From the NCBI GenBank assembly GCA_032622095.1, contig CP136066.1, forward strand, positions 207,164,978 through 207,228,977: 64,000 bases of DNA, read 5' to 3'. This DNA is from Siphonodentalium dalli (Eukaryota; Mollusca; Scaphopoda; Gadilida; Siphonodentaliidae). Shown here piece by piece: positions 6,018 to 57,300 of the stretch (within the stretch, counting starts at the first letter, position 1; the number at the start of each line of letters is the position of its first letter). Made by a program: the position numbers and the translations under genes. The notes under the pieces are model-generated. The model ran no database searches and had not been told where the DNA came from. It saw only the letters and a list, made by a program, of their open reading frames with translations.

Positions 6018-6649
6018 CATGGAATTCATGATTACTCATAACTCCATATATGGAATGCTACTCCAGAACTTTGACCTATAGTACTTAAACTTCGGAATGG
6101 GGGCTTGATGGATCCAATATTGTAGCGACTCTGTTATCTCGCTTATTGAATTACAGACATAACACCAATATGTTCAGATGGCTATGATGGGTCCGTTACG
6201 TTATATGCGCACACAATGGAGAGATTCTATTTTCAACACAGCATAATGCATACATTATATGGCATGCGTCATGACATTTCTTGTTTTCAATCAATAAATA
6301 TGGTCGCTGTCTCAGAAACGAAGGAAAATAGACTTGTATTCTGTCAATATTAAGTTTTAGTTATTTGGATTCGACAGATTTGACTTTATCGGATATCTCG
6401 ATTGATTTGCAATATTGCATTTATTCCAATTTCGAACTTATACATCCAATTATTAATCGGAAGCTCCCTGTTATAAGGCAACATACACACTCATTCATGT
6501 GAACGGCTTAATGCAGACAACGGATCATATCAACGCAACATACAAACCAACGCAACATACCGGTACGTAACAGACTTGTCTTAACACTCCTTAATAATAT
6601 TAAGTTATTATCAGCAATTTTAATTGATACCTATATTTATCTGTTTCAG

Positions 6650-7561
6650 GAACATTCCCAATACACACAAAGCATATTATCACATGAAGGCAAAATTGGG
6701 AAATTTGGTCTGCCTATTGTGGAAGAACTTGCTTCAGCAGCAGCTGCTATGAACGTTACTGGAATGCCAGCAGTCGACATCATACTTCAGTATGGTAATC
6801 AACTCAACTTTGTTACTTCTGATAAGTCAAAAGATCACGATCCAGCTTTTCATTTAGTAGAAGAATCTGCTGATGTATCAGAAGATGATGATGGCATAAA
6901 ACACGATGCCATATTAACTGGAGAAGAAGAGAAAATTGTTTCAGAAAAGAAACTGTATATCTGTGAGATATGTGGAAAGGATTTTGTGATTAAAGGAAGT
7001 GTGAATCGTCATATTAGATTATGTCACAGCGATTCCAAGTTTAACTGCAGGGAGTGCAGCGTCACCTTCGTATCTGAAGAGAAGAGACAAGAACATCTTG
7101 CTGAAAAACACAAAACGGGAAGTTTCATATGTGAAGTGTGCGGTAAATCTTTTAACAGAAAGAAGATACTGAATTCACACCAGAAAGTGCAGAACCATGG
7201 GACGACTGTCACTGGTGGCTTGGTTTGTCATCACCCTGGATGCGGTCGACGATTCGGAGGTAATAAGTGGTATGAAGGTCATATGAATTCTCATAATGGT
7301 GTCCGACCATTCGAGTGCAAGATCTGCAGACGCACCTTTCACACGGTGTACTATCGTAATGATCACGAGAAGCGTTGCTCTGTGACGGGTATTTACAAAT
7401 GTACTGAATGCGATAAGACATTCAAGAATCGGTGTGGTCTATATGCTCATACTAATTCTATACATAAAGGTATTGTACACACATGTGGGTGTGGCGCGGT
7501 GTTTAAATACCGTAATGGCCTTCGACGTCACCTTAGGGAGAACCCACTGTGTAAAAAATAA
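6650..7561 (+). CDS. Terminal exon of a seven-finger C2H2 zinc-finger protein, copy 1
   Basis: Acceptor 'atttatctgtttcag', then 303 codons and TAA. Frame 0 is open from the acceptor (EHSQYTQSIL), so the GTG at 6719 is not a start; the initiator is either in an unseen upstream exon or the ATG at 6749. After an acidic Ser/Asp/Glu-rich linker come seven fingers: CEICGKDF, CRECSVTF, CEVCGKSF, CHHPGCGRRF (extra residues between the Cys), CKICRRTF, CTECDKTF and CGCGAVF. Fingers 5 and 7 are C2HC because the last ligand is Cys (NDHEKRC, HLRENPLC). A nuclear nucleic-acid-binding role is expected from the fold; the target is unknown. It lies inside a duplicated repeat block and shares about 85% of residues with the copy at 21490. 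It could be a genuine gene copy or a passenger of the repeat. Confidence 0.8.
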   Translation, partial: EHSQYTQSILSHEGKIGKFGLPIVEELASAAAAMNVTGMPAVDIILQYGNQLNFVTSDKSKDHDPAFHLVEESADVSEDDDGIKHDAILTGEEEKIVSEKKLYICEICGKDFVIKGSVNRHIRLCHSDSKFNCRECSVTFVSEEKRQEHLAEKHKTGSFICEVCGKSFNRKKILNSHQKVQNHGTTVTGGLVCHHPGCGRRFGGNKWYEGHMNSHNGVRPFECKICRRTFHTVYYRNDHEKRCSVTGIYKCTECDKTFKNRCGLYAHTNSIHKGIVHTCGCGAVFKYRNGLRRHLRENPLCKK

Positions 7562-11044: not shown

Positions 11045-13999
11045 CTAACACTCCAGCGCAAAACAAGATATGGCATAATTATTTTTGAAACGTAGTATCC
11101 ACGCTGTTGCTCGTAACAGTTTAGTCAAACTCGAGCATCGTTCTACGTCCATAACAGCATCAATGCCAGTGTCGGGAATGTGCATATGACTGTCAGTGGC
11201 GGGGTCTTGGTTCTCTGTGGAGTCAACTGAAATGCTCGTCAACATACTTGCAGTACACGTAGGATGACTTTGACTCACCAATGAAATGTTTGGAGGGTTT
11301 AACCAGTTCGTGGCAACAAAGAGTTGTTTTGCTGTCAAACCACGGGTCAGTAAATCAGCAGGATTGTCATTAGTAGCACAGTACTTCCAACAACTGAGCT
11401 TAGTTAAACGTTTGATCTCCTTTACACGATTGGCGACAAACACCGGTAGCCTTTTATCCGAATTTAGCCAACTGAGCACAACACTACTGTCTGTCCATAA
11501 GTTCATTTTCAGAAGAGGTATTTCTGTGGAGAATGCATTGCATACATGCACTGCTAATCAAGCCGCAATTGTTGCAGCCATGAGTTCTAGTTGGGGTATG
11601 GTCATCTGTTTCGTTGGTGCTACTCTTGACTTTGCCATTACGAATGCGACTTCGTTTCCAACCACAATATAGCAAACAGCACCATAGGCACGGATACTTG
11701 CGTCTCCAAATACATGAATTTCGGCACTATCAATGGGACCATGTATATAGGATCGTGGAACAGTCAATTGCATTGCCTCGTGTAGATCATGGGCAATGGA
11801 CGTCCATCGTTCACAGTAAGTTTCTGGTAATGGTGTGTCCCAGTCAAAGGATTCTTTCCACAAATCCTGCATTAGTATTCGTGCGCGGATGGCTACTGGG
11901 CACAGGATTCCAAGTGGATCGAACACACGAGACACTTGCTGTAGAATGATTCGCTTTGTTATCACTGATTTGTCATTTGGTAGCACATATTTGATGTCAA
12001 ATCCCAAAGAATCTGCAACAGTGTTCCACTCAACGCACAGAACCTTCATACACTCGGTTTGCTCAATAACACCATCGTCACCTGCCACAGCTCGTAATTC
12101 CACACAGTTAGAAGACCAGCTGCGAAGATTGATGTCGGCATCTTTCATCATGCCACGCGCTTCCTCATAAAATTTTAGTGCTGACTGTTCGTCGCTCAAA
12201 CTCACCATGATGTTATCAACATAAATGTTCTGCTTCATTATCTCTGCTGTAATGGTAGACTTGACACTGTTCAAGTGGTGAAGAATTGTACAGTTCAAAA
12301 TGAACGGAGAACAAGTTGCCCCGAACAAAACCCGTTTAAAACGGTACACCTCAAACGGACTGTCGGGATCACTTGGATCACTGACCCAAACAAATCTGGT
12401 AACATCACATTCACTTTCGTTGAGGCCAACATGTAAGAACGCTTTTTCAATATCAGTAGTGATACCGTACTTGTTCAGTCTGAATCTCATCAAAATTTCA
12501 GTTATGTCATTTATCAGTGGGGGTCCTGCTTCCAAACAAGAATGGAGAGACGGTAGATCTCCTTGACTGCAACTGCAATCGAACACTATGCGGATAGGGG
12601 TTGTAGCAGAGTTTTTTAGAATAGCATGGTGTGGAATATAGTGAATCCTCTGAGACGAATTGTCTGTTATGTCGACCTTTTCAATGAAATCGTGTTCGAG
12701 TTGAGTTTCAATTATGTCAGCATATTTCTTGAACAATACAGGTTTTTTCGCCAAACGCCGAATGTTTGCACGAGTCCGATTACTCACAATTTCAATATTC
12801 GATGGCAGTTCTTCGTGATGGTCCAGCCATGGGAGTTTTGCTTCATATATACCATCCTTGAACTCGATAGACTGTTCACAATAAGAAGCGACAAAATTAT
12901 CAGTGTCCTCACTTTGCTTTGAATCGATCCCGATTGTTTCCAAGGACCAAAACCGTTTGAGCTCCACATCGTCAGGTTCTGTCAAAACATGAAGCATTGA
13001 CAAATCGGAATCATGATTGTTGGTTGATGTACCACACAATAAATATCCAAGCCTAGAACTCACTGCAACTGTCCCAGATTTTGATGTGACAATCTCGCCA
13101 TTCACAAATGCATAGTAACTATCGCATCCTATTAACAGCGACACTTCAAAATTCTCACATGGGTAATTTAGCGGATGGGCAAGATTCAATGACTTTAATT
13201 CAGGTGCAGTTACTCGCGATGATTGGATTTTTAGTGGTTTTGTGATTGTGGGAACAACAAGAGCTTCGACAGGAACCACTGATCCATCTTGACATATCAC
13301 ATTAATTCGAACCAGATCCAATTCTCGCACCTTCGAGTCATGAGCCCCAAATGTAGATACATCCAATCTCTCGCACTTAACTGTTTGGAGGTTGAGCTCG
13401 GACACCAGAGCTTGAGATACAAATGATCGGTGTGATCCGTCGTCGAACAAAACATGGATATTCACTTTAATGTCCTGTTTGTCACTGATCGCATCAGCAA
13501 CTGCTGTTTTTAATAACACATATGGGCTGATCCGTGGTATTGTCTCGTTACTTGAAACTGTTGTTACAACAACATCATTCTGTGTAGCAATGTTACTCTT
13601 GTTACTATCCGATTTCGCTGCTTTATTCTGAAGTTCATAATTGTGCTGCGGAAGGACTGACTGACTGTCAAAACCATCAGGTGTCTGTGCATGTGCTTCA
13701 CATAAACGTGTGTGGTGCTTACGCCTGCAAAATAGGCAGCGTCTTGCCCATCTGCACTGTGTAACTCTGTGGTTGCTGCCAAGGCAGTTGAAACATAGAT
13801 TTGATTTATATACATAGTCAAGTCTAGATACCCTGGTTTTATATTTCGGGCAGTCTGATGGGAAATGTTGTCCAGCGCAATAAATACAGCCACGCATTGT
13901 TGCCGTTGCTGCTGATGATGGATGAACTGCACTCGTGGATTTAACAGAGGTGTGAAGTGATGTGATCGTACCATCAAATGAGTCCTCACATATGTTCAT
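11045..13999 (-). mobile_element. BEL/Pao LTR-retrotransposon fossil, incomplete
   Basis: Treated as a fossil. Recognisable parts in order on the minus strand: gag zinc knuckles of CCHC type, an aspartic protease region, a reverse transcriptase of BEL/Pao type (the block around YVDN) and an RNase H region. No integrase and no LTR pair were recognised next to it. It looks broken, with at least one interruption, but large parts remain readable, so it is perhaps of moderate age. It is bounded on the right by a palindromic MITE (about 14034). Confidence 0.88.
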
Positions 14000-14033
14000 T
14001 TTGGACTTATTTGATTCTGAAATAAGCCCACAG

Positions 14034-14372
14034 TGAGGCTGAAGGGGTCACTCTCACCAAAAAAAGTGCTGAAGGGTACACAGGATTTTCAAAATGTGCT
14101 GAAGGGTACACAGGGTTTGAAATGTCATTCTAAAGGACATTCAGTCTTCGTATCTGCCATGATTTCTGTTAAAGAATAATTGTTTACGTTCTAATGAATA
14201 TCAAAGTGTACTGAAAACAAACTGCTAATGGGCGCCAGACTGTCATAAACACTATTTAAGTAATGGTGTTCGTGCCGATCACAAACCCTGTGTACCCTTC
14301 AGCACATTTTCAAACCCTGTGTACCCTTCAGCACTTTTTTTGGTGAAAGTGACCCCTTCAGCCATAGTGAGC
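14034..14372. mobile_element. MITE-M with long inverted ends
   Basis: 'tgaggctgaaggggtcact' and inverse 'agtgaccccttcagccata'. Arms also contain 'gtgctgaagggtacacagg' twice. It borders the BEL/Pao fossil. Confidence 0.75.
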
Positions 14373-20856: not shown

Positions 20857-21489
20857 CATGGAATTCATGAATACTCATAACTCCATATATGGAATGCTAC
20901 TCCAGAACTTTGACCTATAGCACTTAAATTGCGGAATGGGGGCTGGATGGATCCAATATTGTAGCGACTTTGTTATCTCGCTTATTGAATTACAGACAAT
21001 AACATCAACAGATGGCTACAATGGGTCCGTTAAGTTATATGTGTTAATGCACACAATGGAGAGATTCTATTTTCAATGCAGCATAACGCATACAATATAT
21101 GGCATGCGTCATGATTTTTCTTGTTTTCAATCAATAAAAGATGGTGGCCTTCTTAGAAACGAAGGAAAATAGACTTGTATTCTGTCAATATTCAGTTTTA
21201 GTTATTTGGATTTTACTTTATCGCATATCTGGATTGGTTTACAATAATCCAATTTCGAACTTATACCTCCAATTATTAATCGGAAGCTCCATGTTATAAA
21301 ACAACATACATACCGATCGTTCATGTGAATGGCTTAATGCAGACAAAAGATCATATCAACGCAACATACAAACCAACGCAACATACCGGTACGTAACCGA
21401 CTTTTCTTAACACTCCTTAATAATATTAAGTTAATATCGGCCATGTTCCTATTGAAATTTTAATTGATACCTATCTTTACCTGTTTCAG

Positions 21490-22401
21490 GAACATTCCCA
21501 ATACACGCAAAGCATATTATCACATGAAGGCAAAACTGGGAAATTTGGTCCGCCTATTGTGGAAGAACCTGCATCAGCAGCAGCTACTATGACAGTAACT
21601 GGAATGCCAGCAGTCGACATCATACTTCAGTATGGTAATCAACTCAACTTTGTTACCTCTGACAAGTCAAAAGATCATGGTCCAGACTTTTATCTCGAAG
21701 AAGAATCTGCTGACATATTAGCAGATGATTATGACGTAAAAGACGATGCCATATTAACCAGACAAGAAGAGAAAAATGTTCCAGAAAAGAAACAGTATAT
21801 CTGTGAAATATGTGGAAAGGATTTTGCGATAAAAGGAAATTTGAATCGTCATATTAGATTATGTCACACCGATTCCAAGTTTAACTGCAGGGAGTGCAGT
21901 GTCACCTTCGTGTCTGAAGAGAAGAGACAAGAACATCTTGCTGAAAAACACAAAACGGGAAGTTTCATATGTGAAGTGTGCGGTAAATCTTTTGATAGAA
22001 AGAAGATACTGAATTCGCACCAGAGAGTCAAGAACCATGGGACGACTATCACTGGTGGCTGGGTTTGTCAACATCCTGGATGCGGTCGACGATTCGGTGG
22101 TAAAAAGTGGTACGAAGGTCATATGAATTCTCACAATGGTGTCCGACCATTTGAGTGCAAGATCTGCGGACACACCTTTCACACTGTGTACTATCGTAAT
22201 GATCACGAGAAGCATTGCTCTGTGACGGGTATTTACAAATGTACTGAATGTGACAAGACATTCAAGAATCATGGAGGGTTATCTGGTCATATTAATTCTA
22301 TTCATAAAGGTATTGTACACACATGTGGGTGTGGCACAGTGTTTAAATACCGTAATGGCCTTCGACGCCACCTTAAGGAAAACCCACAGTGTAAAAAATA
22401 A
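21490..22401 (+). CDS. Terminal exon of a seven-finger C2H2 zinc-finger protein, copy 2
   Basis: Same structure as the exon at 6650: acceptor 'tctttacctgtttcag', 303 codons, TAA, seven fingers with every ligand kept, fingers 5 and 7 of C2HC form. By hand count about 43 residues differ. Differences gather in the acidic linker and in fingers 1, 5 and 6 (finger 6 reads KNHGGLSGH against KNRCGLYAH); finger 2 is identical. I counted roughly 48 nonsynonymous and 30 synonymous changes, which suggests mild constraint rather than a dead copy. The flanks match copy 1 from the Helitron 3' end on the left to about 24624 on the right. Confidence 0.8.
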   Translation, partial: EHSQYTQSILSHEGKTGKFGPPIVEEPASAAATMTVTGMPAVDIILQYGNQLNFVTSDKSKDHGPDFYLEEESADILADDYDVKDDAILTRQEEKNVPEKKQYICEICGKDFAIKGNLNRHIRLCHTDSKFNCRECSVTFVSEEKRQEHLAEKHKTGSFICEVCGKSFDRKKILNSHQRVKNHGTTITGGWVCQHPGCGRRFGGKKWYEGHMNSHNGVRPFECKICGHTFHTVYYRNDHEKHCSVTGIYKCTECDKTFKNHGGLSGHINSIHKGIVHTCGCGTVFKYRNGLRRHLKENPQCKK

Positions 22402-24914: not shown

Positions 24915-25357
24915 TTAAAGGTACTCAATCCAATCAGACGGTCCCCATATCATCAAATTACAACTACAAAATTTCTTCAAAATAAGCTTTAGTTATCAGA
25001 ATCGATTAATTACAACAAAATAAAACTAACCGCTGTCAACTATGGTATAAAATGTCTGAAAACTTGTAATTTATCAACATGTTGTTCAACGAAATATTAT
25101 CACTTGATTATCACAAAATTTGGCCGTATCACCACTTGATTTTAGAGATCCATCTTCACGTGCAATTTTGTTGGTTTGACAAATGTTTTCCAGGTGGAAA
25201 AAAGTACACATCTCGAGAAATAACAGATTTCAAAAATTGATATCTGATCACTCTGAGCTTTGATGGGTGGGTTTCTCGACTCGAATCAAATATTTTTTAT
25301 CCCCGAAGCCAAAGAAATAGTTATTTAGGGGTGTTTAATCGGATAATGCATCTTTAA
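24915..25357. mobile_element. MITE-B (TTAA-flanked)
   Basis: TTAA at both ends; left 'aggtactcaatccaatc', right 'ttaatcggataatgcatct'. Internal 'gaagccaaagaaatag' as in the other copies. Confidence 0.75.
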
Positions 25358-26930: not shown

Positions 26931-27345
26931 TCAATCCAATTAAGCACGCCTAAAATACTATTTCTTTGGCTTCGGGGATAGAAAATAATTTATTCAAGTT
27001 GAGGGACCTACCTATCAACGCTCAGAGTGATCATATATCAATTTTTGAAGTTTTGTTATTTCTATTGTTTCTGGCCCATAAACACGCCGTCAAAAGGATG
27101 GTTCTCAGTCAAAATTGAGTTATTAATACACTTGATTTTAGAGTTATCCATCTTCGTCCGTTTGAATAAGTGTTTCTGGGGAAATTATTAGTACACATCT
27201 CGAGAAAATTACAAAATTCAAAAATCAATATCTAATAACTCAGAGCTTTGATGGATGGGTTCCTCGAATTGAATCAAATATTTTTTACCCCTGAAGCCAA
27301 AGAAATAGTAATTTAGAGGTGCTTAATCGGATTGAGTACATTTAA
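26931..27345. mobile_element. MITE-B (TTAA-flanked)
   Basis: TTAA at both ends; 'aggtactcaatccaattaag' and inverse 'cggattgagtaca'. It is inserted in the AT-rich repeat Q, interrupting the third copy of the composite segment. Confidence 0.8.
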
Positions 27346-30556: not shown

Positions 30557-31238
30557 TACAGTAATGCTCTAAGTAATCGACTCTTTAAAGGTACTCAATC
30601 CGATAAAACTCCTCTCAATTACTATTTCAATGGCTTCGGGGGTCAAAAATATTTGATTCGAGTCGAGGAAGTCACCCATCAAAGCTCAGATTTGTTAGAT
30701 ATCGATTTTAGAAATCTATTATTTTTCATTATCGGGACTACTTTCTGGCCCAGAACACAGTCAAAATTGCGTTATTATTACCACTTGATTTTAGAGTTAT
30801 TCATCCTTGTCTGTTTGAATAGTGTTTTGGTGTACATATCTCGAGCAGGTTACGAAATTGACGGCAATTATTAGTACTCATCTCGAGAAAATAACAAATT
30901 TCAAAAATCAATATCTAATAACTCTGAGCTTTGTTTGATGGGTTCCTCAACTCGAATAAAATATTTTTAACCCCCAAAGCCAAAGAAATAGTAATATAGG
31001 ACCCTCTGATCGGATTGTTGTTGTTGGAATCTGTTGAGATGGGGACCCTCTGTTCGGATTGAGTACCTTTAACCACAGCAGAATTATGGGTAACTTTTCA
31101 CGATTTAGTCGGAAATATGGCTTGTTGCCATTCATCAGAAAGCTCTCCCCGAGAGCTTTCCGATGAATGACTAAATCCTGAAAAGTTACCCATAATTCTG
31201 CTGTGGTTAAAGAGTCGATTACTTGGAGCATTACTGTA
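30557..31238. mobile_element. MITE-A interrupted by a TTAA element
   Basis: Left end 'tacagtaatgctctaagtaa', right end 'ggagcattactgta'. The family's internal 'ccttaacc' site holds the TTAA-type insertion at 30585-31072. The copy itself sits inside the larger inverted-ended element at 30387-31810. Confidence 0.85.
30585..31072. mobile_element. MITE-B (TTAA-flanked), inserted in MITE-A
   Basis: TTAA duplicated at 30585-30588 and 31069-31072. Ends 'aggtactcaatccgat' and inverse. Contains the 'atttcaatggcttcggggg' block shared by other B copies. Confidence 0.85.
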
Positions 31239-43606: not shown

Positions 43607-44372
43607 ACCCATGAGTACCATGCTAACACCAAGCAGGCCTTAAAATCCATGAGTACCATGCTAATACCAAGCAGGCCTTAAAATCCATGAGTACCATGCT
43701 AATACCAAGCAGGCCTTAAATTCCATGAGTACCATGCTAATACCAAGCAGGCCTTAAAATCCATGAGTACCATGCTAATACCAAGCAGGCCTTAAAATCC
43801 ATGAGTACCATGCTAATACCAAGCAGGCCTTAAATTCCATGAGTACCATGCTAATACCAAGCAGGCCTTAAAATCCATGAGTACCATGCTAATACCAAGT
43901 AGGCCTTAAAATCCATGAGTATCATGCTAATACCAAGCAGGCCTTAAAATCCATGAGTACCATGCTAATACCAAGCAGGCCTTAAAATCCATGAGTACCA
44001 TGCTAATACCAAGCAGGCCTTAAAATCCATGAGTACCATGCTAATACCAAGTAGGCCTTAAAATCCATGAGTACCATGCTAATACCAAGCAGGCCTTAAA
44101 ATCCATGAGTACCATGCTAATACCAAGCAGGCCTTAAAATCCACGAGTACCATGCTAATACCAAGCAGGCCTTAAAATCCACGAGTACCATGCTAATACC
44201 AAGCAGGCCTTAAAATCCATGAGTACCATGCTAATACCAAGCAGGCCTTAAAATCCATGAGTACCATGCTAATACCAAGCAGGCCTTAAAACCATGAGTA
44301 CCATGCTAATACCAAGCAGGCCTTAAAATCCATGAGTACCATGCTAATACCAAGCAGGCCTTAAAATCCATA
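43607..44372. repeat. 38-bp tandem array, about 20 copies
   Basis: Unit 'aaaatccatgagtaccatgc' plus 'taataccaagcaggcctt'. Very uniform (one or two changes per unit), so recently homogenised. No unique spacers, so it is a satellite and not a CRISPR array. Confidence 0.93.
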
Positions 44373-44801: not shown

Positions 44802-44924
44802 AAGCCAATATAAAAAAAATTGCTAAATTTACATCCCCCTCCCAACCCTATTTTTAGTCCCCTCCTCAATTTTTTTTATTTGCATATCTTTTATGCAAAT
44901 TTTTTTCTCATGCCTGAATTCTTT

Positions 44925-45286: not shown

Positions 45287-45375
45287 TTAGTCGAAGGTTC
45301 CTCCCACAGCAACAGCAAAATTATCTCCTTCGGACGGTAAGTAATCCGCATTCCAGAGGAAATCAGTCCACATGG
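45287..45375 (-). CDS. Exon 7 (terminal) of the cupin-like gene
   Basis: Acceptor 'aatttctcttgcag', then two bases completing Ala and 28 codons, MWTDFLWNADYLP to VAVGGTFD, then TAA. Hydrophobic 'FLW..DYLP' and a short Gly-Gly-aromatic-Asp tail fit the C terminus of the family as I recall it. No perfect AATAAA was found close behind the stop. Confidence 0.85.
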
Positions 45376-48300
45376 CTGCAAGAGAAATTAAAATGTCCAT
45401 AACACTGAAGCTCAACTTTGAGAGGGACTAATGTCAAATGTTACAGTTGATGGAGTGATAAGGAATGTGGAAAGTTGGATTGTCGATGCAATACTAGATG
45501 TCAATGCAAAGAGTATAAACCAAGATGGCTGGTGGCAGCCATATTTTCCAACATAAAGAGGTGATTGTAAACATATCTTGTCAATTTCGAAAAAATTCTC
45601 TAATAAATGCAGGGTGTAATGATCAATTGAAATCCATGCAGGGACGCCAGAGAATAGGGGCATGCGGGGGGCACTTGCCCCCCCCTTGCCCTGGCCCAGG
45701 GGAGTCCAGTGGGTACCTGAAAAGTGCCAACCTGGCTGTTTGTCCCCTTGCCCTTTGGTGCTTCCAGTGTCCCTGAATCCATGATGGTCATGTTTTTTAA
45801 TGAATTTCGAAGAAATATTGAAGGCTTCCATCTAGAGATCATCCCGAAAATTTGTCTGAAGTTTGGCGACGATATGATGTGGCTTGCATGGTGTTCCTAA
45901 GGATTTAGTCATTCAAAGAGTAAAATCCGAGATGGCTGTCAGTGGCTGAGGACACTCACATATTTGTCCCTGTTGAAAGACTGAGCATGTTCACATCAAT
46001 CTTAACCGTATACGTTTCATTACACGGTTCTCGGGGGTATTCACATATTTGTCCCTGTCACAAGACTGACGTGACAGGTTTGCATGTTACATTACACGGC
46101 TCTCGGGGTACTCACATATTTGTCCCAGTTATAAGACTGATGTGACAGGTTTGCACGTTACATTACACGGCTCTCGAGGGTACTCACCTATTTGTCCCTG
46201 TTATAAGACTGACGTGAAACGTTTGCATGTTACATTACACGGCTCTCGGGGTTACTCACATATTTGTCCCTGTTATAAGACTGACGTGACAGGTTTGCAC
46301 GTTTCATTACACGGCTCTCGGGTTACTCACATATTTGTCCCTGTTATAAGACTGACGTGAAAGGTTTACACGTTACATTACACGGCTCTCGGTTACTCAC
46401 ATATTTGTCCCTGTTATAAGACTGACGTGACAGGTTTACACATTACATTACATGACTCTCGGGGTACTCACATATTTGTCCCTGTTATAAGACTGACGTG
46501 ACAGGTTTGCACGTTACATTACATGACTCTTGGGGGTACTCACATATTTGTCCCTGTTATAAGACTGACATGACATGTTTTCATGTTACATTACACGGCT
46601 CTCGGGGTTACTCACATATTTGTCCCTGTTATAAGACTGATGTGACAGGTTTACATGTTACATTACACGGCTCTCGGGGGTACTCACCTATTTGTCCCTG
46701 TTATAAGACTGACGTGACAGGTTTGCACGTTACATTACACGGCTCTCGGGGTACTCACATATTTGTCCCTGTTATTAGACTGACGTGACAGGTTTGCATG
46801 TTACATTACACGGCTCTCGGGGGGTACTCACCTATTTGTCCCTGTTATAAGACTGACGTGACAGGTTTGCATGTTACATTACACGGCTCTCAGGGGTACT
46901 CACATATTTGTCCCTGTTATTAGACTGACGTGACAGGTTTGCATGTTACATTATACAGCTCTCAGGGTTACTCACATATTTGTCCCTGTTATAAGACTGA
47001 CGTGACAGGTTTACACATTACATTACATGACTCTCGGGGTACTCACCTATTTGTCCCTGTTGTACGACTGACGTGACAGGTTTACACGGCTCTCGGGGTA
47101 CTCACCTATTTGTCCCTGTTATAAGACTGACGTGACAGGTTTGCACGTTACATTACATGACTCGGGGTTACTCACCTATTTGTCCCTGTTATAAGACTGA
47201 CGTGACAGGTTACATTACACAGCTCTCGGGGTACTCACTTATTTGTCCCCGTTATAAGACTGATGTGACAGGTTACATTACACAGCTCTCGGGGTACACA
47301 CCTATTTGTCTCTGTTATACGACTGACGTGACAGGTTTGCACGTTACATTACACGACTCTCGGGGTACTCACATATTTGTCCCTGTTATAAGACTGATGT
47401 GACAGATTTGAACATTACATTACACGGCTCTCGGGGGTACTCACATATTTGTCCCTGTTATAAGACTGACATGACAGGTTTACACGTTACATTACACGAC
47501 TCTCGGGGTACTCACATATTTGTCCCTGTTATAAGACTGACGTGACAGGTTTGCATGTTACATTACACGGCTCTCGGGGTTACACACATATTTGTCCGTT
47601 ATAAGACTGACGTGATAGGTTTGCACGTTACATTACACGGCTCTCGGGGTTACTCACATATTTGTCCGTTGTAAGAGTGACGTGACAGGTTTGCACGTTA
47701 CATTACACGGCTCTCGGGGGGTACTCACATATTTGTCCGTTATAAGACTGACGTGACACGGTGACAGGTTTACACGTTTCATTATACGGCTCCCAGGGGG
47801 TACTCACATATTTGTCTCTGTTATAAGACTGACGTGACAGGTTTACACGTTACATTACACGACTCTCGGGGTACTCACCTATTTGTTCCTGTTATAAGAC
47901 TGACGTGACAGGTTTACACGTTTCATTACACGGCTCTCGGGGGTACTCACATATTTGTCCCTGTTATAAGACTGACATGACAGGTTTGCACGTTACATTA
48001 CACGGCTCTCGGGGTTACTCATATATGTGTCTCTGTTATAAGACTGACGTGACAGGTTTGCACGTTTCATTACACGGCTCTCGGGGTTACTCACATATTT
48101 GTCCCTGTTATAAGACTGACGTGACAGGTTTACATGTTACATTACACGGCTCTCGGGATACTCACATATTTGTCCCTGTTATAAGACTGACGTGACATGT
48201 TTACACGTTACATTACATGGCTCTCAGTGTACTCACATATTTGTCCCCGTTATAAGACTAACGTGACAGGTTTACACATTACATTACAGGGCTCTCGGGG

Positions 48301-51300
48301 GTACTCACATATTTGTCCCTGTTATAAGACTGACGTGACAGGTTTGCACGTTACATTACACGACTCTCGGGGGTACTCACATATTTGTCCGTTATAAGAC
48401 TGACGTGACAGGTTTGCATGTTTCATTACACTGCTCTCAGGGTACTCACCTATTTGTCCCTGTTATAAGACTGACGTGACAGGTTTGCACGTTTCATTAC
48501 ACGGCTCTCGGGGTTACTCACATATTTGTCCCTGTTATAAGACTGACGTGACAGGTTTACATGTTACATTACACGGCTCTCGGGATACTCACAAATTTGT
48601 CCCTGTTATAAGACTGACATGACAAGTTTACACGTTACATTACATGGCTCTCGGGGTACTCACATATTTGTCCCCGTTATAAGACTAACGTGACAGGTTT
48701 ACACATTACATTACATGGCTCTCGGGGGTACTCACATATTTGTCCCTGTTATAAGACTGACGTGACAGGTATGCATGTTACATTACACGACTCTCGGGGG
48801 GTACTCACATATTTGTCCGTTATAAGACTGACGTGACAGGTTTGCATGTTTCATTACACGGCTCTCAGGGTACTCACCTATTTGTCCCTGTTATAAGACT
48901 GACGTGACAGGTTTGCACGTTACATTATACAGCTCTCGGGGTTACTCACATATTTGTCCCTGTTATAAGACTGTCGTGACAGGTTTACACGTTACACGGC
49001 TCTCAGGGGGTATTCACATATTTGTCCCTGTTATAAGACTGACGTGACAGGTTTGCACGTTACATTACACGGCTCTCCGGGTTACTTACCTATTTGTCCC
49101 TGTTGTACGACTGACGTGACAGGTTTGCATGTTTCATTACATGGCTCACGAGGAAGCAGAATGATGGTTGTCTCCCCCTCAAGTTGCATAAACATCACCA
49201 ATGAATGGTCCATCGGCATCTGAAAAGATGAACCAACCATTCAAATAAATATACAGTTCTGTTTAAAATCATACTCAGACTCATCAGGTACTGAGTCTGA
49301 TGAAATCCGCTACTTGTTGCATTACCGTCGCTATAAATAACTTCCACAGACAACACTTATGACCACCCACATTTTCCTTTGAAAAAAATTGGATCGACAT
49401 AATGTACTTTCGGTTTTGTTTCCGTGACGACTTTCATTTTAGCAAAATAAAAACATGGCTTCCTATTCTATGTCAACCCAACCCATATTAAGCCAAATCC
49501 AAAAGTGAAATCTACCTCAGACTGTTCGGTACTAAATGTTGAAATTCTTGATAATATTCAATTCTATTGGACATGTTAGCTAGTAATATTGGTCAATTCT
49601 GGATTCTTTATATATGCCTTTCAGGTAGTGTTTAATTGGATGTCGTAAACCTCGGCGAGAGCTTTCCGATTAATTAGGGCATTACTGTACACAGAGAAAA
49701 ATAATCCTACCGGCTTTGACTTTTTCCCTTTGTAGTTGGAAGACACGAAGATCCAGTTTGTGTCTGCAATTTCAACCCATGATGGAAGAAAGTATGGTCT
49801 CTGATAGAACACTCTGGTTTCTTTAGATGCCTGCGGTAAACAGTTCTCCCTGAATAAATGTGTGAAGTGTTAGAATATTGGAATTTTGGTGATGACCGGA
49901 TGAGTGAAGTGGACTGTAGGTGTGTCAAAGGGTTTAATCATGTTGAGAGTAAAATCCCATGATGGCTACCGGCAGCCATGTTTTATGGCCGAATGACCCC
50001 AAAATGACTCGTTCCCATCTAAATGTCAATGTCAACAGCTATAAAAAATTTCATAATGATCTGACCAAAGGTACGACCTGTAGGAAATTGTTGACAAGAC
50101 ACACACAAGTTGAACTAACTAGAGATGGGCCTGTCCCAGATGGGACTGAGGTATACCCCCTGTATTCAACATGTTATTTGAATGTAGTGGCCATTACTGT
50201 ATATTGGGCACTGAAATTATGTGAACAGTTAACCCTAAATCCCCTAAGCCCTAACACTAATCTTGAACCTCTTAACCCTTAATCCTAATCCTAAAACCTA
50301 TTGACTGAAAAATGGAGCAATAAAAGCTCGGACAAAATTATGCATTTTGAGAAGATTTTGAAAGTTGAAAAAGGGGGCTAACTCCACCAAATATAAAAGC
50401 TCAGACAAAATTATGCATGTTGCGAAAATGTCAGACAAAATTATGCAACAAACAAAAAGTCGGACAGACGTCATAATCACAGGTGCACAGGTTCCCATGG
50501 TACTAAATATCAGTGCCAAGATTAAAAAACTTTGACCTAAAAATGTAGGAATAAAAGCTGGGACAAAATTACGCATGTTGCAAAAAAATTTCTAAGTCGA
50601 AAAATGGGGATAACTCCACCAAAAAATGTCGGACAGACGTCATAATCGCAGGCGCACAGGTTCCCATGGTACTAAATATCTGTGCCAAGTTTTAAAAAAT
50701 TGAATTGGGGGGGGTATAAAAATGATTACAAAATCTATTATTATTAGGTTATGTAACATTTTACTTCTAATTTGGTTGCCTTATTAACCCTTTTTATACT
50801 AAATGGATTCCCCCTTTTAACTATTAAAGTATACATTGGAATGGTCTATTAATCATTTGGAGGAGTGTTCAGGTAATAAAAGCAGACGACAGACAGAATA
50901 ATAGCTCCCATCTATTGGTCACCCAGATGATCCATATGAAGTTTGGTGATGATTGGATGAAGGAGATGGCCTCTAGGGTGTGCCGAAGGATTTAGTCATA
51001 CAAAGAGTAAAATCCAAGATGTTTCTCAATGAAATTCGGAACAATATGATGGATCTCAGCTAGTGGTCACTGGTCACCCAAAAGATCCATATAAAGTTTA
51101 ATGATGATCGGATAAGGGATGTGGTCTGTAGGGTGTGCCAAAGGATTTTAGTCATGCAAAGAATAAAATCAAAGATGGCTGGCGGTCATATTTTTCATAG
51201 AAAATTTTTTCACATTCGATATCTCCCATCTGGTGATCCTAATCATGACTGTATATTTTCAAAACAATACTCGAATAAATTCGGGCTGCAGGATGTGCCG

Positions 51301-54300: not shown

Positions 54301-57300
54301 TCTGTCTCCAACCATAAACCTCTAAAAAAGTTAGACACTAGATTTAAAATTAAAACATTTAAAAATATACTAGAACATTCTATTGTCATCAACACACTCA
54401 GAATCGATAGAAATTCCAAAGCAGTGTTCCTGAACTTTCCAACCAAATTTCCAATCTCCAGTGACTTAACTCGAAATGTAAACAAATGCTATAATTGTCT
54501 CATTCTATTCTCTCATTATCAATGGCTTGTCATATTAGTATTAGTATGAAGTTGATGAAACGTTAATAGGGGAATATGCATGTAACACATTCCTTTATCA
54601 CCAACTAAATTATCACATTTCACAGTTTCACTGATGACAGTCTTATTCATTAATTTTGTTTTCGCACTATGGTACGGTAACTATGGACGTGTTTACAAAA
54701 TGATGTCATGATGTGGAGCCATAGATGGAGTCACCCAACTTCTTATAGTATCAGTGTGCATTGTGATGCGGGGAAATGACACTTCCCTCAGCTGATAGAG
54801 ATTGTCGCTGTCAAGCGTTTCTGAGCACATTGGCCAATCAGATACACGCATTTAAGCGAAAGTAGGTGTAATTAGATACAAATTAACACCTCATGTCTGT
54901 CATTGTTGAGTTGATCCAACATTTCTAATGGGGTGGACAGTAAGAGTCAATTTCAAGGATATGTCCACAAGGCAAAATTCCACCCAGGTGGTAATCAGTG
55001 TGATGAAATATTCTATCTCACAGTGACCCCCAAAATGGGCAAGAAACTGGCTTTGGTAGCAGTACACGATTTCCAGCAATTTTGGCCAACCTGGGAGGCG
55101 GTACTGAACTTCAAATCTATGCTGAGACATTGTCTTTGGCATAGGTCCATTCAAGCATGTTTTAATTTCGACAGAAATGATAGATTTAGTCATATATCTG
55201 TACTTTAGCTTCTTTGTGAAATTTGTCATTGAGTTATGCCCCTTCCACGCACAAAACGCTCTATTTTACCCATTTTTTGACTCAAATTGACCATTTTCAA
55301 CCCAAAAACAGACCATGACAGGGCGAATGTCAGTAAATAAGCTTCTTCCACCTGATAGAGCTATGTTAGAGCTGAGAAATATTTGAAATAGAAAAAAAGA
55401 TATCGTATCAATTTCGAAAAAATGTCTTGCAAGCGCAGATGACAGAATTCAGGGGAGAGAAATCAGGCTATTTTCCTGTAACCAATAACACAAGAGTTGG
55501 CCTTCACTGAATACGAAAATCCTGTTGCGTGTCCAAATTTTTCACTTTTTTTTTTACATTCCCAGTTTTGTAAAATAATTAAACCTTCAAACCAGTAATG
55601 ACACATTTAACACAGGCTACACTGGCTGTTATGCCCCCCCCCCCCCCCCCCAGATACTTATTTTTCAGGCCCCCTACATTCCAATAAAGTGTGTACTACC
55701 TTATATAAGACAAACATGTAAATCCATTTTATTTATATCCATGCCTTGTATTTAATTAAGAAATGAATGTTAAGCGGATGTGTTTGTTATTGGGGGGGAT
55801 GTGGTGCTGTGGTCATTGGGGCACATTGTGTGAATCGCGAAGCCTAAATCAGTAAGACCACCATTATAAGATCCTGCTTTGTTACATAACCTACCTCTAT
55901 AAGATTTTCAATGGTTAAAGATACAGTATCTGATTTAACTCCCCTAAATTACAATTTCTTCGGCTTCCGGGGTAAAAATATATATTAGATTTGAGTCGAG
56001 GAATCCACCCATCAAAGCCCAGAGTTATCAGATTTCGAGTTTTAAAATTTGGAAGTTTTCACATCTCAAATATTTGGCACCATGGCAAATATTCGACGAA
56101 TGCCAACCACCATGCTCTCGATACCAAATTGCATTGAACAAAATGTTGATAGATAACACTTTTTGGGCAATTTTATACAATAGTTGACAGTGGTGTTAGC
56201 ATTATTTTTGGGCAATTAATTGATTCTGATAACTGAAGTGGCATTTCAAGAAAATGTTGTTGTTGTTGGAATCTGATGATATGTGGACCATCGAATCGGA
56301 TTGTGTACCTTTAAATCCTGCTTTGTTACATAACCTACCTCTATAAGATCTTCAATAGTTAAATCCTGCTTTCCGTCTGGCCAGTCTTTCATTCCGTCTT
56401 CCACAATAACAGGAATGTCCTTCTTCATAAATGAGTCCGCTATCTCCCGCGCTGATGTGTTATATATCCTTTGTATGGACACCAAGTTTTCACATATCTT
56501 CAAAATATTAACACAAGGGAAAAAAGTGAGAAAATTGTTGATTGGGCCAATGACAGCTCAGCTTGACTACTCAGATCAGATTCATGAATAGTAGAGACGA
56601 GATTTTCAGTCACATTCATTTAAAGGTGCAAGCCTTGAAATAGGGTGTCTGTCATTTGCAGGGGTAGCATCACCAAATTCACCCTCTGGGAACCTCATTC
56701 TGCTTACACCTCAGCAGAATGAGGTTCCCAGAGGGTGAATTTGGTGAAGCTAGCCCGCTATGCGGGGTAGCATCACTAAATTCACCCTCTGGGGACATCA
56801 TTCTGCAAATGACAGACACCCTATTTCAAGGCTTGTAAAGGGGTACTGTACACTAAATCTGCCCATTTATAGGACCATCTCATTTTATACTCAACATAAT
56901 ATATGCAACAAATGAATGAATTTGAACCATGGATTAGTGCAAAATACACTCATGTGCTCTATGAACGATGCAAACAAGATGGTTATTATAATGAAAATGA
57001 ATATATGACTCCAGCCACAAATTTATTTTCATTATAATTACCATGTTGTATGTATCGATCACAGAACACATGAGCATATTTTGCACTGATACATGGCTCC
57101 AATTCATTCATTTTTTGCTTATACATGTATTATGTTGAGTATAAAAGGAGATGGTCCCATAAATGGCCGGATTTAGAGTACAGTCACCCTTTAAGCTGAT
57201 TAATTGGGAGCGTTACTTTTAAAAACATGGGAACATTTTTGGTAACCATCTGACACCAAGTCTGATATGAGTTGAGGGACATCTCAATGTAACATTCTGA

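Follow-up and report, generated by a model that had tools for sequence, protein, structure and literature searches.

Tandem arrays whose unit carries a 5' splice site are already known in a few human genes. Here we describe an array of this kind in the scaphopod mollusc Siphonodentalium dalli, where the junction between exon 6 and intron 6 of a minus-strand gene is repeated through the intron that leads to the last coding exon, in a stretch of 64,000 nt of contig CP136066.1 (assembly GCA_032622095.1, forward strand 207,164,978 to 207,228,977), hereafter the window. Coordinates are positions in this window, exon numbers are those of a first-pass annotation of the same DNA, and a slash marks a splice site. 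In the human gene IFI6 (6-16, G1P3), the minisatellite units are 12 nt long, in frame and lengthen the protein, whereas every distal donor of the array described here is predicted to truncate it. Published cases are compared below on the basis of excerpts of the cited reports; according to these, two downstream units of the IFI6 array are used as donors, giving three mRNA species (PMC4526556).

The closest architectural match is the 31-bp variable number tandem repeat (VNTR) of human CBS, c.1444_1467+7(16_21), whose unit crosses the exon 13/intron 13 border and, as we read the notation in the excerpt, comprises 24 exonic and 7 intronic nt (PMC2630376). It is a known length polymorphism of 16-21 copies (PMC2630376), compared with 44 extra copies of 72 nt here, and is listed together with raised homocysteine and lowered activity (PMC1395315). 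A second CBS variant, 844ins68, offers the parallel of a duplicated exon/intron junction that is described as harmless because the extra copy is spliced out (PMC2630376). The VNTR in intron 18 of human ABCA7 starts at the GT of the exon 18 donor and differs between people in copy number, from about 12 to 427; splicing from a unit donor lengthens the transcript by one unit, with a frameshift and premature termination codon, the isoform keeping one unit amounts to 2 +/- 1% independently of array length, and longer arrays accompany exon 19 skipping, with expression 33% lower between the extremes (PMC5954066). The array in S. dalli resembles that of ABCA7 in beginning at the donor of the preceding exon and in the premature stop that follows from use of a unit donor, here a prediction. 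It differs in that the 25-bp ABCA7 unit is described, in the excerpt, as intronic and without an exon part, compared with 72 nt of which 61 are exonic, and in that ABCA7 exon 19 can be skipped, whereas the next exon here is the last one.

The exon 6 junction is repeated through intron 6

Exon 6 (49219-49090, minus strand, 130 nt) has an open frame, an acceptor reading TTTTCAG and the donor TAG/GTAAGT, its 3' end reading TAG/GTAAGTAACC. The true 5' splice site lies at 49084-49089, with G+1 at 49089. Exon 7, the last coding exon (45287-45375, minus strand, with the stop codon), starts at 45375, is preceded by TTTTAATTTCTCTTGCAG and encodes 29 residues, the first of them split by the intron. Together the two exons form a single open frame through to the stop, ..QGQI/AMWTDFLWNADYLPSEGDNFAVAVGGTFD. 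The intron between them is 3714 nt long and the array makes up 84% of it.

The intronic array (45949-49078, minus strand) contains 44 copies, numbered u01 to u44 from the exon onwards, as delimited by Tandem Repeats Finder (TRF), a direct parse of donor positions and alignment. The TRF call covers 46012-49147 with a period of 72, 44.3 copies and 88% match, and the parse places, besides the true donor at 49089, 44 donors in the array, from 49017 down to 45959, which makes 45 in all. In the alignment, a typical unit consists of the last 61 nt of exon 6 (49150-49090) followed by the first 11 nt of intron 6. The spacing between units ranges from 59 to 85 nt and is exactly 72 in 18 of the 44. These results bear out the claim of the first-pass annotation that 45 copies of an exon end plus its donor are present, and the unit-by-unit alignment over the 49090 boundary that it proposed as a test shows that the units do align across that boundary.

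A 21-base junction motif, allowing three mismatches at most, has 44 occurrences in the window, one at the true donor and 43 in array units (u21 is missed), every one on the minus strand and inside 45953-49103; given that 0.01 occurrences are expected by chance, chance is excluded. After masking of 45941-49160, a search of the window for the unit yields matches of no more than 13-14 bases (E 0.29 and 3.6). The repeated unit crosses the 5' splice site of the preceding exon, as in the CBS and ABCA7 arrays, and its copies carry donors that look usable. As judged from its unit, the array is thus a splice-donor, or exon/intron junction, minisatellite, and relative to the human examples it is distinguished by a longer unit and a uniformly truncating predicted outcome.

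Array donors and the predicted outcome of their use

The dinucleotide GT is retained in 43 of the 44 array donors. The most frequent class is TAT/GTGAGT (n=28), followed by TAG/GTGAGT (n=9, where 'about ten' ATAG/GTGAGT had been announced), and one donor reads TAG/GTGTGT. Over all 45 donors, TATGTGAGT occurs 28 times, TAGGTGAGT nine times and TATGTGAAT twice, and the remaining sequences are singletons: TAGGTAAGT, which is the true donor, TTTGTGAGT, TATATGAGT, TATGTGTGT, TAGGTGTGT and TAAGTGAGT. As annotated, the true donor is the only GTAAGT and stands first in order. Position -1 is T in 33 of the 44 array donors, and these are the weaker ones.

Donor strength was assessed with a donor matrix (threshold 7 bits) and by predicted pairing with the U1 5' end. 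At least 7 bits are reached by 39 of the 44 array donors and by the true donor. Such sites occur at a density of 12.7/kb in the array plus true donor, against 0.90/kb in the rest of the minus strand and 0.67/kb on the plus strand, and first-order random sequences of array composition (n=300) hold a mean of 10.4 and a maximum of 21, against 40 in the real sequence. The predicted U1 pairing energy is -12.1 kcal/mol for the true donor and -6.9 to -7.4 kcal/mol for the TATGTGAGT class. The nine TAGGTGAGT donors, at -12.0 to -12.2 kcal/mol, are level with the true donor, which by this predicted pairing is among the ten best matches without being a unique best. The AACAG of the unit has 12 pyrimidines among the 20 bases upstream, compared with 12-13 for the three acceptors examined alongside it, and small cryptic exons may arise within the array if it acts as an internal acceptor.

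Reading through the true donor translates as ..QQGQIGK and then meets a TAA at 49082-49084 (minus strand, intron 6 positions +6 to +8), the first stop for any transcript spliced from an array donor. Translation accordingly predicts that all 44 distal donors give an identical truncated protein that lacks the last 29 residues. Truncation had been anticipated from stops inside the units, and this part of the claim holds: in the exon frame defined by its own donor, a unit contains a stop in 40 of 44 cases. The cause assigned to it does not, these stops being redundant because the TAA at 49084-49082 comes first. Use of a distal donor adds at least 72 nt to the transcript, and the nearest distal junction lies 64 nt downstream of the TAA. 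Nonsense-mediated decay (NMD) triggered by a downstream junction usually needs 50-55 nt after the stop; since the junction lies at least 64 nt after it in every case, transcripts from distal donors are expected to be NMD targets.

Growth of the array

Averages of unit identity cover u01-u43, leaving aside the end unit u44, the most diverged (75% to the consensus). Among these units the mean identity is 91.8%, and to the exon copy it is 86.1%, with no gradient of identity to the exon copy along the array (rho 0.05, p = 0.75). Units six positions apart resemble each other more than they do once the order is shuffled (p = 0.0025; of the 19 lags listed, five were tested by permutation), in agreement with a six-unit block, u03-u08, apparently duplicated as u09-u14 (48084-48938, minus strand, read from the alignment), that is, expansion inside the array. 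CpG columns are the most variable, with 47 non-consensus cells in 403, against 87 in 2242 for the other non-donor columns. The overall pattern resembles what the ordinary growth of a minisatellite out of one founder copy would give.

The unit nearest to the exon copy lies in mid-array: u29 (47036-47094, minus strand, 59 nt) is 91.5% identical to it over aligned bases, has the exon-like GTCGTACAACAG and a TAG donor, and pairs with the exon copy in a tree of the units (99/90). Considering that this tree is built on few columns and is poorly supported, with 4 of its 41 inner branches starred, only this pairing is relied on. The exon states shared by u29 indicate that old exon-like units persist or that exchange with the exon occurred.

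A second junction-spanning duplication in the same gene

An upstream exon of the same gene shows a smaller duplication of the same type. Its end (..GKQDLTIEDLIE) and donor GAG/GTAGGT form a first copy at 56325-56372 (minus strand, G+1 at 56338; 34 exonic and 14 intronic nt), and a second copy of exon end and donor lies at 55881-55919 (minus strand, G+1 at 55894), the first 9 nt of this second copy being found at 56316-56324, on the other side of a 396-bp insert (55920-56315, minus strand). As the sequence stands, 56363-56315 recurs at 55919-55871 (49 bp at 96%). When the insert is removed in silico, the copies lie head to tail with a period of 48 and 46 of 48 positions identical, compared with at most 15 of 48 at the other offsets from 40 to 55. 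Both 48-nt copies have the donor GAG/GTAGGT, and a possible start of a third copy, AAAGCAGGAT, is present at 55880-55871 (minus strand). This pair could represent the two-copy state from which an array of the exon 6 type starts.

Tandem arrays cover 17% of the window, or 13% without the exon 6 array. Two of the four placed donors lie in tandem DNA, for which a crude estimate gives p of about 0.085 (0.14 at 17% cover); with tandem arrays at 13% of the window, this coincidence is only mildly unusual.

The insert belongs to a short interspersed repeat family that starts with TTAAAGGTAC and ends near TATCTTTAA and resembles a miniature inverted-repeat transposable element with a TTAA-type target. 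A full-length relative of the insert is found at 24915-25352 (68% identity), and partial relatives in the window include 27205-27332, 30598-30728 and 31015-31072.

Tests for selection and RNA structure

We assessed conservation of the donors over u01-u43. The -1 column was set aside because of its T/G split, and the remaining eight donor columns have 6 non-consensus cells in 344 (1.7%), compared with 87 in 2242 (3.9%) for the other non-CpG columns. This difference is not significant, as randomly drawn sets of eight non-CpG columns are equally low in 27% of draws (p = 0.27). Adding -1 brings the total for nine donor columns to 17 non-consensus cells in 387 (4.4%).

Folding of the units gave no excess stability over shuffled sequences, with z values of -0.04 (consensus) and -0.41 (exon copy). 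Donor masking by the consensus is likewise no stronger than in randomly substituted versions of the exon copy, 54% of which give an equal or lower value. The exon copy folds more stably than 32 of the 44 array units. Accessibility in the real sequence is higher for the true donor than for 31 of the 44 array donors, among them all ten that have G at -1, an ordering for which the controls give no backing. One specific candidate, a self-masking hairpin of the unit consensus in which UCACGU pairs with AUGUGA over the donor, was rejected after energy, accessibility and random-substitution controls all fell within chance. Neither the conservation of donor columns nor donor-masking RNA structure gave a sign of a selected splicing regulator, and nothing found in the conservation and folding tests argues for the array as a built device.

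A probable passenger minisatellite and competing explanations

Taken together, the reading we consider probable is that a tandem-duplicated junction grew into a tolerated passenger minisatellite, which would be spliced out whole from the first donor with a small leak to decay-prone RNA. The founding event would have duplicated 72 nt in tandem, 61 of them exonic and 11 intronic, at the exon 6/intron 6 junction, and unit and block duplications would have followed up to the 44 intronic copies. Tolerance of the array would stem from use of the first donor, with which all copies are spliced out and the mRNA stays the same. That donor may be favoured by being the earliest transcribed, by ending the shortest exon (130 nt) and by its place among the ten best matches, and the internal donors would be weak decoys at most, whose rare use gives the ..QGQIGK end and then NMD. 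In favour of this reading, the unit spans the border, adjoins the exon directly downstream and has no copy elsewhere in the window; a second duplication of the same type is present in the same gene; and the unit-retaining isoform of ABCA7 stays, in the part of the report used, at 2 +/- 1% (PMC5954066). Of the three options proposed in the first-pass annotation, 'simply tolerated junk' is the best supported, and donor-specific selection was not detected.

Several points weigh against it. Use of the first donor is deduced from sequence. By predicted U1 pairing, nine of the array donors are as strong as the true one, so their use could exceed a leak. GT is kept in 43 of 44 units and the donor columns without -1 show about half the variation found elsewhere, although not significantly so. 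Finally, the ABCA7 and CBS arrays are tied, in the excerpts cited, to expression or enzyme activity, and 'no effect' is therefore no safe default.

The alternative that survives best, although we regard it as unlikely, is the splice-choice rheostat already suggested for this array, in which array donors compete with the true one, their products end in ..QGQIGK and decay, and array length sets the amount of intact mRNA. The abundance of donors of at least 7 bits, far above that of random sequences and of the rest of the window, the nine that match the true donor, the single stop to which every distal donor leads, 64 nt or more ahead of the junction, and the association listed for the CBS 31-bp VNTR (PMC1395315) would all suit such a mechanism. 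It is opposed by the lack of significant donor-specific conservation and by the weaker T at -1 in three quarters of the array donors, and the precedent does not support it either: in ABCA7, as excerpted, unit retention is constant with VNTR length and expression fell by other means (PMC5954066).

Those other means suggest a somewhat more doubtful alternative, namely that the array cuts output not via its donors but via the length of the intron, via chromatin or via a poorly recognized next acceptor. ABCA7 is a precedent for this as far as the cited part goes (PMC5954066), and the share of intron 6 taken up by the array is consistent with it. Considering that exon 7 is the last exon, failure would here take the form of intron retention or early polyadenylation, and against the latter the minus strand of intron 6 contains just one AATAAA/ATTAAA hexamer, an ATTAAA at 45801. 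Downstream of the exon 7 stop, the first such hexamer is at 44880, about 400 nt away.

We think it very unlikely that the direction was reversed and exon 6 acquired its 3' end from an older minisatellite. Exon states do occur in some units (u29, and GAA in 8 of 44), so that the sequence alone leaves polarity unproven; nevertheless, the same frame runs on through the 69 nt of exon 6 that lie upstream of the repeat, a stop in the exon frame interrupts 40 of the 44 units, and the segment in question forms the joint to exon 7. Still less credible is a plus-strand gene for a tandem-repeat protein lying over the array: open frames of up to 120 aa with a 24-residue repeat exist in 46070-49223 (plus strand), but unit spacing is a multiple of three in only 22 of 44 and the frame is lost repeatedly, which makes these frames probably incidental. 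A U1 sink, another function proposed earlier, in which the transcript titrates U1 small nuclear ribonucleoprotein (snRNP), can practically be dismissed, since the roughly 40 good U1 sites in this one intron belong to a single gene's pre-mRNA, dwarfed by U1 snRNP at the order of 10^6 per vertebrate nucleus, and the donors are without significant conservation.

A broader and tentative possibility, more speculative than the passenger reading itself, is that splicing shelters such duplications. Duplications of a junction would go unseen by the mRNA while the first donor is used, which would make donors favoured nurseries of minisatellites, and this gene would display two stages of one process, the 48-bp two-copy state at the upstream exon and the 45-donor array at exon 6. 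If the array donors are used at all, their identical ..QGQIGK end would make array length a heritable dial on intact mRNA. The two-copy duplication suggests how splice-donor arrays start, and makes it a testable question whether minisatellites arise more often from donors than from acceptors or points within introns. The 45 near-identical donors in cis also constitute a natural experiment on the choice among nearly equal 5' splice sites.

The host gene and other features of the window

Within the placed gene model, consistent phase is limited to exons 5, 6 and 7. An upstream piece at 53799-53737 (63 nt, phase 0) is, with its ends as placed, out of phase with the 139-nt exon 5, and one or more upstream exons are therefore absent or incorrect. 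The joined peptide used for Pfam, PDB and GTDB searches corresponds to this partial model and included the out-of-phase piece. With it, no Pfam family was found at E up to 1, nor with exons 5-7 alone, and no PDB chain was found by sequence at E up to 10. The upstream open reading frame alone matched only STT3_PglB_C in Pfam, at 17.4 bits, below the 26.5 cut-off of that family. Searches with the exon peptides gave 50 pattern matches in GTDB contigs and 9 in IMG/VR, none of which was confirmed as a relative, and the exact 22-base array motif is absent from IMG/VR.

The gene had been labelled cupin-like. A pattern PP-EC...C...V...G-I, followed by W.H.T and ..G.EYD, is seen in JmjC/cupin-like relatives and counts against a reversed direction of copying at exon 6. 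On the strength of this family pattern we share the impression behind the label, which is confirmed by neither the Pfam nor the PDB sequence search, a result that makes the cupin-like or JmjC-type assignment less likely but, obtained with a partial gene model, does not exclude it.

A short interspersed repeat lies at 49695-49643 (minus strand), beginning about 16 nt inside the intron after exon 5, near the weak donor of that exon; its parts, TACAGTAATGCCCTAATTAATCG and ATTAATCGGAAAGCTCTC, have 27 other matches in the window (16 + 11). Another array, with 20 copies of a 38-bp unit at 97%, occupies 43609-44371, about 0.9 kb past exon 7. Elsewhere in the window, two closely similar open frames of 349 and 323 aa at 6512-7561 and 21430-22401 (plus strand) appear zinc-finger-like by eye, and long open frames of 829 and 170 aa at 11045-14047 (minus strand) resemble, likewise by eye, a retroelement polyprotein.

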